Assembly: GCA_938045295.1 (NCBI GenBank)
Contig: CALINO010000012.1
Coordinates: forward strand, 1-64,000
DNA from: an uncultured Arenicella sp.
GTDB lineage: Bacteria > Pseudomonadota > Gammaproteobacteria > Arenicellales > Arenicellaceae
Direction: 5' to 3'
DNA length: 64,000 bases
The notes under the pieces are model-generated. The model made no database searches. It was not told the DNA's origin and saw only the letters and a program-made list of their open reading frames with translations. Positions 7,394 through 16,663 of this stretch are shown here, piece after piece (position 1 is the stretch's first letter; each line of letters opens with the position of its first letter). The translations under genes were made by a program, and so were the position numbers.

Positions 7394-7623
7394 ATTGTGC
7401 TCTAACAAAGTCAGTGTTGCTTAAAATTGTGCTTAAAGTGATGGTGCTCAAATTAATGCCATCCTTGACTGAGCGTTTGAGCTGGCAACGAGCTTACAGT
7501 CGTTGCTTAAGCAATACCTAACGGCACAGGGCAGATGAACGTATGTTCCGTATGGTGTGCACTGGTGGTGACAGATCGGCTTTAAACCGCACTGGCACAT
7601 ACCATTAAACACACAATACTTAT

Positions 7624-7862
7624 CTGCTCCTCTGTCCGGGTACCTGAAAGATTACCTCTTCGGTGGTTCATCATTGCCTCGCAGTTGTGCGCATGTGTTA
7701 TGCGTTGCAAGGCTGGCGAACACTCTCCAGAGACAACTTGATGAATGTGAGTTTAAATCACATTATCTTCTCCACGGTCCATTTGCCTGAGCGGTTGCGA
7801 GCACGTTGCGCCTTCGGCGGGCAGCCTGAGTAAAATAAGCCGCCACTCTCCCATGGAGGGGT
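7624..7862 (-). promoter_or_regulatory. Tandem glycine riboswitch (two aptamers)
   Basis: Read on the minus strand, aptamer 1 (7862 to about 7767) has GGGAGAGTGGC, GCCGAAGGCGCAA and CTCAGGCAAATGGACCG. Aptamer 2 (about 7737 to 7624) has TGGAGAGTGTTCGCC, ACCGAAGAGGTAA and TCAGGTACCCGGACAGAGG. These are the conserved gcvT-type glycine aptamer elements in the right order, with a linker of about 30 nt. The element sits in the leader of gcvT-gcvP and starts only a few bases after the predicted transcription start. The expression platform (7394-7623) was not resolved. Confidence 0.95.
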
Positions 7863-7874
7863 AGTTGCGGGGCG

Positions 7875-14137: not shown

Positions 14138-15163
14138 ATGAATCAAAACTCTCAATATCCGCACTCTTTGGTGCTTGGTTGGTGGCTGCTTGGTTGTGCG
14201 GCGGTCGTGTATTTAATGATCGTGGTTGGCGGCGTAACTCGGCTCACACAGTCTGGCTTGTCGATGGTGGAATGGGAGCCCATTATGGGCATTATTCCGC
14301 CACTCAATCACGCTGAATGGATGGCGGTATTTGAAAAGTATCGTCAGTCTCCTGAGTATTTGAAAATTAACGCAGGCATGAGCCTAGAGGCGTTTAAAGG
14401 GATCTTTTATTGGGAATACGGCCACCGTGTATTAGGCCGGGTGATTGGGTTAATTTACTTTTTGCCACTGTTGTTCTTTATTGTGCGGGGCATGGTTCCC
14501 AGGGAGTGGTTTGCTCGGTTGTTTGGGCTGTTTATCTTGGGCGGCCTGCAAGGCTTGATGGGCTGGTATATGGTCAAAAGTGGTTTGATGGATGTGCCAC
14601 ACGTTAGTCAGTACCGTTTAACCGCTCACTTAGGCTTGGCACTGGTTATATTTGCCTGCATGATTTGGTTTGCTCTGGACTTTTTGCGCGGTGAGCGTAG
14701 GCGTAATAGGGCGTCCTCCCCTTACTTGCTGTCTACCGCCATGGTGGTTAGCGTTGTGTTTATCATGATGCTCAGTGGTGGTTTTGTTGCCGGCACCAAG
14801 GCAGGCTTTATCATGAACACATTCCCTAAAATGAATGGCGCGTGGGTTCCGTCAGGGTTGTTTGCAATTGAGCCCGCTTGGCGCAACGTATTTGAAAACC
14901 CTGTGGCCATTCAGTTTGTGCACCGAAGTTTGGCGTTTGTTGTGGCAGGCGTGGTGGTCTGGAGTTTCGTTAAATCACGTACACAAGCATTTGCTACCGC
15001 TAATCATTGGGTGTTATTGATTGTGTTGGTTCAAGTGTGTTTAGGTATCTCAGCATTGGTAATGCGGGTGCCAGTGTGGTTAGGAGTGCTGCATCAGGCG
15101 GGTGCGGTGGCGCTGTTCACTGCGGCCTTGTATTCGGCGCACGTTGCTAGAAAGGCTCAATAG
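14138..15163 (+). CDS. ctaA: Heme A synthase (COX15/CtaA)
   Basis: This inner-membrane enzyme oxidises the heme O methyl group to make heme A for aa3-type cytochrome oxidase. The 341-residue protein has about eight transmembrane segments. Conserved features are GGVTRLTQSGLSMVEW after the first helix, EYGHRVLGR with a heme-ligand His, and matching His residues in the second half (QFVHRSLAF and LHQAGAVALF). It is not adjacent to ctaB or oxidase subunit genes here. It begins shortly after the fabB hairpin. Confidence 0.95.
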   Translation: MNQNSQYPHSLVLGWWLLGCAAVVYLMIVVGGVTRLTQSGLSMVEWEPIMGIIPPLNHAEWMAVFEKYRQSPEYLKINAGMSLEAFKGIFYWEYGHRVLGRVIGLIYFLPLLFFIVRGMVPREWFARLFGLFILGGLQGLMGWYMVKSGLMDVPHVSQYRLTAHLGLALVIFACMIWFALDFLRGERRRNRASSPYLLSTAMVVSVVFIMMLSGGFVAGTKAGFIMNTFPKMNGAWVPSGLFAIEPAWRNVFENPVAIQFVHRSLAFVVAGVVVWSFVKSRTQAFATANHWVLLIVLVQVCLGISALVMRVPVWLGVLHQAGAVALFTAALYSAHVARKAQ

Positions 15164-15376
15164 TTTATCGAGCCAGGATGGCTCACTTATTATCGATTAG
15201 TAGTACCGTGACCTGAGCGGAGTAGGTCGTGTGAAGTGTTACTAGCTGTTAAATTCAATTCATGAATTATTGGTTATTCATGAAATATAGTTATATCACG
15301 ATATTATTTTTGATAATAATTGTTTAAATACAATGGCTTAACAAGGTTTTGCGTTTTGTGTTTTTTGCTCATTTTT

Positions 15377-15405
15377 TTGACTTTTAGCCTCTCAAACAGA
15401 ATAAT
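15377..15405 (+). promoter_or_regulatory. sigma70 promoter of the candidate sRNA
   Basis: TTGACT (15377-15382) and AATAAT (15400-15405) are separated by exactly 17 bp. The predicted start is near 15412, and no coding sequence follows before the terminator at 15533. Confidence 0.6.
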
Positions 15406-15411
15406 AGAGTT

Positions 15412-15562
15412 CATCAAGTTGAACGAGACACAAAACATATTGTTATTGATCTCTCCTTCAACTCATCGTTTATAGGCCAGTTCGATTGTGTAGCTGGCTT
15501 GCACATCTCCTCCATCCTCCTTTGGTGGTTTGGGCGCGAACCTCAGTTCGCGCCTTTTTTTT
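15412..15562 (+). ncRNA. Candidate small RNA with C-rich (anti-SD-like) segment
   Basis: This stretch of about 150 nt runs from a good sigma70 promoter to a strong terminator and holds no plausible ORF. Predicted elements in order are: a long stem AGTTGAA / TTCAACT (15417-15463) extended by GAGA / TCTC; a second stem GCCAG / CTGGC (about 15476-15499); a mostly unpaired C-rich stretch with two CCTCC motifs (15505-15520); and the terminator. Two CCUCC motifs could pair with Shine-Dalgarno sequences, as in known C-rich-loop sRNAs. It resembles no RNA family I recognise. The remaining sequence of the 15164-15832 gap is AT-rich and otherwise featureless, apart from the rplM promoter. Confidence 0.5.
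15533..15562 (+). terminator. Strong intrinsic terminator
   Basis: GGCGCGAAC and GTTCGCGCC form a perfect 9-bp stem with loop CTCA, followed by eight T residues. It lies 370 bases after ctaA and 270 bases before rplM, so it most likely ends an RNA that starts between them. Confidence 0.9.
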
Positions 15563-15667: not shown

Positions 15668-15696
15668 TTGCCAAAGCCCACGTTCATCGTTATGAT
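15668..15696 (+). promoter_or_regulatory. rplM-rpsI promoter
   Basis: TTGCCA and TATGAT are separated by 17 bp, followed by a GC-rich discriminator (CGCGCG) typical of stringently controlled ribosomal promoters. The start near 15703 leaves a leader of about 130 nt, where autoregulation by L13 is possible by analogy with E. coli. Confidence 0.7.
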
Positions 15697-15832
15697 CGCG
15701 CGTCCTGCGAGTGTAATGCTCGTAATACAAGTTCAGATGCTGATTTATCACTGTCTGCACTGTAAGTACTGGCCACTGGTTTTTGAACTCTGGCAGTAAT
15801 GAATATAAACATAGAATAGTAGGTTTTTAACC

Positions 15833-16261
15833 ATGAAAACATTTTCTGCAAAGCCAGCAGAGGTGAAGCGCGAGTGGTACGTTGTAGACGCCACTGACAA
15901 AGTGCTTGGCCGTGTGGCGACTGAAATCGCCCTTCGCTTGCGTGGCAAACATAAGCCAGAGTACACACCTCATGTGGACACCGGTGATCATATTGTTGTT
16001 ATCAATGCTGAGAAAATCGCAGTAACGGGTAACAAAGAAGAAGACAAAATTTATTACCGTCACACTGGCTTCCCAGGTGGTATTAAAGACGTCAACGTTC
16101 GTAAGCTGCGTGAGCATGCTCCTGAGCGAATCATTGAAAATGCAGTGCGTGGCATGTTGCCAAAGAACCCATTGGGTCGCGCAATGTTCAAAAAACTACA
16201 CATCTATGCTGGTTCTGAGCACAAGCATCAAGCTCAAGAGCCTAAAGTGCTAGAGATCTAA
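15833..16261 (+). CDS. rplM: 50S ribosomal protein L13
   Basis: This is a large-subunit ribosomal protein of 142 aa, the same length as E. coli L13. Family stretches include [25 protein letters not shown] and [23 protein letters not shown] precedes the ATG at suitable spacing. It forms the conserved rplM-rpsI operon with the gene 12 bases downstream. Confidence 0.99.
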
Positions 16262-16273
16262 AGGAGAATTTAA

Positions 16274-16663
16274 ATGTCTGAAGTATATCTAGGCACTGGC
16301 CGTCGTAAATCTTCAACTGCGCGTGTACGCTTGCAGTCTGGTTCTGGCAACATCACGGTTAACCAACGTCCTCTTGATGAGTATTTTGGTCGTGAAACAG
16401 CGCGTATGGTGGTTCGTCAACCGCTTGCGTTGTTAGAGATGTTAGAAAATTTTGATATTAACGTGAATGTGCAAGGCGGCGGCGGAAGCGGCCAAGCTGG
16501 CGCTATTCGTCACGGTATTACGCGCGCTTTGTTGGCGTATAACGAAGAACTTCGCCCCACATTACGTGCAGCTGGCTTTGTTACTCGTGACGCACGTGAA
16601 GTTGAGCGTAAGAAAGTGGGTCTTAAAGGCGCACGTCGCAGACCTCAATTCTCGAAACGTTAA
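16274..16663 (+). CDS. rpsI: 30S ribosomal protein S9
   Basis: This is a small-subunit ribosomal protein of 129 aa. It starts with the family pattern [16 protein letters not shown] and ends in the basic tail RRRPQFSKR that reaches the P-site tRNA. A strong Shine-Dalgarno AAGGAG precedes the ATG. The gene is cotranscribed with rplM and ends in an intrinsic terminator. Confidence 0.99.

Follow-up and report, generated by a model that had tools for sequence, protein, structure and literature searches.

The window, a stretch of 64,000 nucleotides from an uncultured member of Arenicella (a genus that we take to be gammaproteobacterial), holds 669 bases between the ctaA stop at 15163 and the rplM start at 15833, and the question raised by this locus is whether a small RNA (sRNA) is made from the gap and, if so, how it would act. 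An earlier note on this DNA had proposed such a candidate; the gap that it described agrees with the gene coordinates, and Pfam supports CtaA and L13 as its borders (Table 1). The candidate itself gained support from its conservation, from a conserved promoter of its own, from a separate promoter for rplM and from its likeness to studied anti-Shine-Dalgarno (anti-SD) sRNAs.

Table 1. Features of the ctaA-rplM-rpsI region, in window coordinates
Feature	Position	Strand	Basis
ctaA (COX15-CtaA)	14138-15163	+	Pfam PF02628, 2.4e-108
Conserved distal motif CATGAAATATAGTTATATCA, candidate activator site, about 80-100 bp 5' of the -35 element	15279-15298	+	Column identity, pattern counts
Sigma-70 promoter of the sRNA, TTGACT-17-AATAAT	15377-15405	+	Consensus scan
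Predicted sRNA, about 150 nt	15412-15562	+	Start inferred 7 nt past the -10 element; end at the U-run
5' stem-loop 1	15417-15463	+	MFE fold; sequence not conserved
Stem-loop 2, immediately 5' of the C-rich core	15473-15501	+	Fold; sequence variable, stem tends to persist
Near-invariant C-rich core, two CCUCC (15509-15513, 15516-15520)	15505-15530	+	Alignments
Anti-SD hairpin, stem CC-U-CCA/UGG-U-GG	15509-15528	+	MFE and centroid folds
Intrinsic terminator and U-tail	15532-15562	+	Terminator scan; stem-loop 15532-15555, then T's
Separate rplM promoter, TTGCCA-17-TATGAT, then CGCGCG	15668-15696	+	Promoter scan
rplM (ribosomal protein L13)	15833-16261	+	Pfam PF00572
rpsI, next after rplM	16274-16663	+	Pfam PF00380

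The sigma-70 promoter with 17-bp spacing that had been described for the candidate was found, with its -35 element TTGACT at 15377-15382 and its -10 element AATAAT at 15400-15405, and it matches the consensus at 10 of 12 positions. Across 30 loci, the window included, a promoter with at least 10/12 matches was present in the same stretch at 28, compared with 4.4% of dinucleotide shuffles. The terminator was likewise borne out, with a 10-bp stem, a 4-nt loop and a T-run up to 15562. The region 15410-15562 folded at -48.2 kcal/mol (z = -4.55), and none of 200 shuffles was equally stable; the claim of a structured noncoding RNA thus held, while its length of about 120 nt gave way to a predicted length of about 150 nt. 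Together with conservation, the promoter, the fold and the terminator suggest that the sRNA is transcribed.

Covariation of the stems, which the earlier note had suggested checking, gave a divided answer. Changes on both sides affected 3 of the 8 modelled pairs of the terminator stem (26 distinct rows), a count that is not unusual beside the shuffle mean of 2.4, whereas the terminator's covariation score of 0.186 was attained by none of 500 shuffles. The anti-SD hairpin gave no covariation signal because its pairs hardly vary. A coding origin was considered and rejected: small ORFs overlap the region, but the conserved block consists of a hairpin and a terminator with loops of variable length, and therefore no conserved reading frame is expected.

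Farther upstream, CATGAAATATAGTTATATCA showed a mean column identity of 0.86-0.91 among the 16 genus members aligned, the highest value upstream of the transcribed region. Of the 18 genus genomes, 13 contain the pattern CATGANNNNNAGTTATANC, which occurs 16 times in all, 13 times at the sRNA locus; the reversed control gave 3 matches, equal to the 3 occurrences of CATGANNNNNAGTTATANC elsewhere. From its position and conservation, CATGAAATATAGTTATATCA may be an activator site for the sRNA promoter.

Within the predicted RNA, column identity reached 0.99-1.00 from 15509 on in the core of the 16 genus members, compared with mostly 0.3-0.6 in ordinary flanks and a mean of 0.06-0.53 over stem-loop 1, and the core CTCCTCCATCCTCCTTTGGTGGTTTGGGCG was invariant or almost so in 28 order-level rows. 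The core is predicted to form a hairpin whose 8-nt loop (15515-15522, UCCUCCUU) displays the second CCUCC. The earlier note had placed both CCUCC motifs in an unpaired C-rich stretch; in the window RNA this applies to the second motif (predicted mean unpaired probability, 0.90) and not to the first, which is mostly paired (0.33). In the whole 64-kb window the string CCTCCNNCCTCC has a single occurrence, where 0.01 would be expected. The 50 nt on the 5' side of the core had mean z values of -2.66 in the 16 genus members, -2.39 in 14 others and -1.67 in the window. By plain count, stem-loop 2 was found at 25 of the 30 loci against 20.7 expected (16/16 against 11.1 in the genus), which is mildly above chance.

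Two near-duplicate loci, L011 and L030, were omitted from alignments A1 and A2 in favor of L010 and L029, so that A2 comprises 28 of the 30 element rows. Fourteen further rows of A1 were picked by an exact-pattern scan, and identity there is partly by construction; the same scan of the genome contigs gave at least 117 matches, mostly due to chance. L075, L081 and L088 show the element and are absent from A1.

We then followed the element outward through the taxonomy. In a DNA search of 60 relatives and the window's own genome, the 3' part (about positions 95-158 of the query) was recovered from 15 of the 17 relatives in the genus and also from other families within the order. At an E value of ≤1, the tally was 51 of 61 genomes, many of these being chance matches; at E values below 1e-6, 31 genomes, the own genome included, were found among the matches listed. 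At E ≤ 0.01, a covariance model built from 28 rows (R1, whose E values are rough) matched 87 of the order's 109 genomes, with 49 at 50 bits or more among the matches listed. At E ≤ 0.001, an even draw of 274 class genomes gave 117 with a match and 157 with none. Two of the 18 genus genomes, both 81-82% complete, had no R1 match. Of 299 genomes drawn from the phylum, 17 matched at E ≤ 1e-5; 14 of these were in the class, and the three outside it were weak (27-28 bits). Many class members in this draw had no match, and all 20 nonmatching genomes that were listed belong to the class. Gammaproteobacteria as defined by GTDB take in the former Betaproteobacteria, and therefore part of the 117 matching genomes may be betas; R1 misses some betas, as genome G215 exceeds the cutoff of the betaproteobacterial family RF02278 yet has no R1 match. 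On these counts, the predicted sRNA is widespread but patchy in the class.

Possible paralogues in the window's own genome were rejected. RF02278 matched five places there at E ≤ 1, and the four besides the element scored at most 23.3 bits and resemble ordinary terminators. One further place matched R1, at 18.9 bits, and the genome has a single clear copy of the sRNA.

The Rfam search that the earlier note had suggested returned RF02278 as the best match (43.3 bits, E = 2.4e-7 in a search of 681 bases, model positions 1-64 of 64), below the family's gathering score of 50 bits. RF02278 is the Betaproteobacteria toxic small RNA and takes in NcS03, NcS05, NcS27 and NcS62 of Burkholderia, bdhR1, and S17 of Bordetella. 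When 20 class-level loci were scanned against all of Rfam, no family reached its threshold over the element. RF02278 exceeded its cutoff in 1 of 185 class genomes and matched 22 of the 185 at E ≤ 1e-5; Escherichia coli, used as a control, gave no RF02278 match at E ≤ 1e-5. Among 16 loci scanned with this model, three passed the cutoff (L060, L061 and L140), while L092, L106 and L122 did not.

A 15-nt core, TCTCCTCCATCCTCC, is common to the window element and the three loci over the cutoff, and two of these (L061 and L140) adjoin rplM on its upstream side, as the window element does. In its fold and its alignment to the model, the window element resembles RF02278 in having two hairpins, a C-rich one with anti-SD motifs and then a terminator. 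The CU-rich anti-ribosome-binding-site motif that RF02278 carries in an unpaired region corresponds to the second CCUCC, the first being mostly paired. Independent transcription is a trait of RF02278; the window element has a conserved predicted promoter from which it would be transcribed. The two differ in that the first stem of the window element has 5 pairs around a U-U mismatch where the model has 8, and a loop of 8 nt rather than 7. Moreover, the window element is gammaproteobacterial, with one clear copy, whereas RF02278 belongs to the Betaproteobacteria; its relatives in Burkholderia are reported in several copies at several loci (PMC4603805), and toxic sRNAs are stated to be currently found only in beta-proteobacteria (PMC7011215). 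Because core and place are shared, the window element is very probably homologous to RF02278. With 43.3 bits against a cutoff of 50 and a host outside the Betaproteobacteria, it was therefore not filed as a member; judged by its sequence, it is a gammaproteobacterial variant of the RF02278 kind, with a first stem shorter than that of the model.

Other families came less close. The Neisseria sRNAs NmsRA/NmsRB and NgncR_162/163 (RF02877) also have anti-SD motifs in a C-rich region and a terminator hairpin; the full-length match to the RF02877 (NmsRb) model was weak (33.8 bits; cutoff, 52), and the meningococcal NmsRs are tandem siblings between dsbB and lrp, described in a text that does not mention rplM (PMC5362039). 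Weak full-length matches over the C-rich stretch and terminator were obtained for SorY (RF02651, 28.9 bits; cutoff, 111) and mmgR/suhB (RF00519, 23.2 bits; cutoff, 41). We suspect that the latter two likenesses reflect convergence, with mainly C-rich sequence and a terminator in common. Searches of the open-access literature by core sequence, or by rplM with sRNA terms, found no gammaproteobacterial rplM-linked form.

Two tandem sRNA cores about 130-155 nt apart were observed at L186 (1133-1335) and also in G252:C83 and G369:C6, and they recall the tandem siblings of Neisseria. A separate observation concerns glycine riboswitches. The window has a tandem one on the minus strand at 7622-7863 (60.8 and 40.3 bits), 5' of two ORFs on that strand (365 and 937 amino acids) that we take, judging from sequence, to be gcvT and gcvP. 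At L182 (1501-1869), a tandem glycine riboswitch lies within about 190 nt after the sRNA core on the same strand. Neisseria siblings of such a kind are reported to control glycine-cleavage genes (PMC13104608).

The position of the element next to rplM was assessed in a class-level set of 67 loci from 65 of the 117 matching genomes, 27 of the loci given as such by the R1 search and 40 taken from its better-scoring places. In 49 of the 67 loci, rplM followed a core-like motif and invariably shared its strand, with a median distance of 214 nt from core to rplM ATG (range, 139-746); in the remaining 18, rplM was not in the examined stretch, 3 of these having fewer than 600 bases downstream. Among the order-level loci, rplM was found in 27 of 30; L003 and L027 had none within 1.5 kb, and L009 ends at the contig end. 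The element also stands 5' of rplM in Andreprevotia (L061), in Neisseriaceae (L092), in Pseudogulbenkiania (L106) and at two loci of Burkholderiales (L122 and L140), all of which are presumably betaproteobacterial groups. We further assume that the Burkholderia gene BCAL3348 is rplM. The ncS27 gene of Burkholderia is located between BCAL3348a and BCAL3349 (PMC4603805), and another study names BCAL3348 among the genes for ribosomal proteins (PMC5688073).

This frequent place 5' of rplM in the same orientation, together with a terminator after the core at the loci examined, would also be expected of a cis-acting leader or attenuator of rplM-rpsI, in which transcription would start at 15412, usually stop at the terminator and read through when L13 is needed. 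We consider this improbable, since a separate, conserved promoter precedes rplM downstream of the terminator: among 14 genus members, the -10-like hexamer before rplM runs straight into CGCGCG in 13 and into CTCGCG in the remaining one. Furthermore, in some relatives additional DNA, at most about 1 kb, stands before rplM, with terminator-rplM spacings of 1084 nt in L004, 902 nt in L012 and 747 nt in L015. From the separate promoter and these long spacers, the sRNA and rplM look like neighboring transcription units. The loci whose examined stretch does not include rplM, among them the genus member L003, also speak against a leader, as do the RF02278 relatives, which are multicopy at several Burkholderia loci (PMC4603805) and reported as trans-acting.

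Two side observations concern the DNA between the sRNA and rplM. Palindromes like CTACAGGATGTAGG were seen between the sRNA terminator and rplM in L004, L008, L010, L012 and L015. In the rplM leader itself (window 15771-15801, plus strand), a motif resembling GGCCNTTGGTTNNTGARCTCNGGC, which forms a small hairpin in the consensus, was present, and it was found in the same place in 13 genus loci; this motif could be an L13 autoregulatory site. No Rfam leader family reached its threshold in the window.

The predicted RNA begins about 250 bp past the end of ctaA on the same strand, and relatives such as S17S are reported to be processed from a longer RNA, so it might instead be the 3' end of a ctaA read-through RNA or an sRNA freed from the ctaA 3' untranslated region by processing. 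This is very unlikely, because a good promoter is kept between ctaA and the core; moreover, outside the genus no ctaA occurred in the 1.5 kb examined (L016 and L018-L030), while promoter and core remain.

Our preferred reading, held with good confidence, is that the locus encodes a trans-acting sRNA, about 150 nt long and transcribed independently, that most likely represses translation at Shine-Dalgarno (SD) regions, probably with Hfq. What can be read from the DNA for this reading is the promoter, the predicted fold, the terminator, the deep conservation, the synteny with rplM, the separate rplM promoter and an Hfq gene in the window's genome (97.6 bits); from the action of characterized relatives together with that gene, we infer that the sRNA is a repressor that depends on Hfq and masks SD sequences, and its transcription, processing, Hfq binding, targets and physiological role belong to the same inference. 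The RNA would be transcribed from its own promoter and end at the Rho-independent terminator, with a U-tail that would suit Hfq. Its C-rich 3' hairpin would display UCCUCCUU as a mimic of the anti-SD tail of 16S rRNA, and RNase E may trim away the variable 5' domain, as in a betaproteobacterial relative. The exposed loop would then pair with SD regions in a number of mRNAs and so repress their translation, probably with the help of Hfq.

The relatives on which this proposal is modeled have been studied in several genera. S17 of Bordetella pertussis is reported to depend on Hfq, to be cut by RNase E from 190 nt down to 67 nt and to repress BP2158 directly; of the 92 genes raised in its absence, 70 have complementary sites at or near the ribosome-binding site (PMC11722255). 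Growth inhibition upon expression in E. coli counts among the traits of RF02278; S17 itself is reported to be hardly toxic (PMC11722255). Overexpression of NcS27 in Burkholderia cenocepacia is reported to slow growth, with the opposite effect from an antisense to its CU-rich end (PMC5688073), and NcS27 has been described as a regulator of metabolic shutdown upon nutrient deprivation (PMC10987360). The Neisseria NmsRs are reported to act via anti-SD motifs and to be under RelA control (PMC5362039). It is scarcely probable that the sRNA mainly binds a partner other than SD sequences, for instance by sponging up an RNA-binding protein or ribosome-associated factors: the core is kept over about 25 nt, although 8 nt would be enough to pair with an SD sequence, and in order-level relatives the invariance spans the whole hairpin and the UUUGGGCG linker, but relatives with nearly the same core are reported to repress mRNAs, and S17 likewise has a 27-nt stretch identical across species (PMC11722255).

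To return to the SD-directed repressor, the genome contains 59 sites of the form AGGAGG-N4-9-ATG, and the pattern reversed gives 7; the 59 include the antisense of the sRNA itself and five copies of a single repeat. Thirty of the 59 were scored, and 16 of these 30 have an open frame of at least 40 amino acids in the examined stretch. A stricter SD pattern left a single site besides the sRNA's own antisense. Many mRNA targets, which the earlier note had proposed, are plausible for the sRNA. Among the 30 scored sites, the strongest predicted duplex apart from the own antisense was at dprA (CCAAAGGAGGGUGG, -33.0 kcal/mol). The pairing of dprA with the sRNA was predicted to be weaker in all 17 relatives, and therefore some other constraint may explain why the site is retained; we name no target. 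The SD region of dprA in these relatives (L261-L278) was exactly GRCCAWGGAGGGTC in 9 of 17 and differed at one position in 2 more; GRCCAWGGAGGGTC at the dprA start is possibly a small SD-sequestering hairpin.

We tentatively suggest, as one possible history, a single ancestral sRNA gene linked to rplM-rpsI that would form an unrecognized family across much of the Gammaproteobacteria in the wide sense and act as a general brake on translation when growth slows; the Burkholderia and tandem copies would be later duplications, and the genus would have gained an activator site of its own. Most sRNAs are narrow in distribution, and thus one that keeps both its sequence and its position in roughly four in ten of the class genomes sampled (117/274) would be unusual. 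Annotation based on Rfam would miss nearly all of it, since RF02278 exceeds its cutoff in just 1 of the 185 class genomes. In the suggested history, mRNAs with strong SD sequences would form the regulon to be repressed, by an RNA copy of the ribosome's anti-SD tail that is made next to genes for ribosomal proteins. The finding links the betaproteobacterial "toxic" sRNAs, whose role is only partly understood, with a wide set of other bacteria and with the rplM locus. It makes both the role of a general anti-SD sRNA and its stay beside ribosomal-protein genes directly testable.
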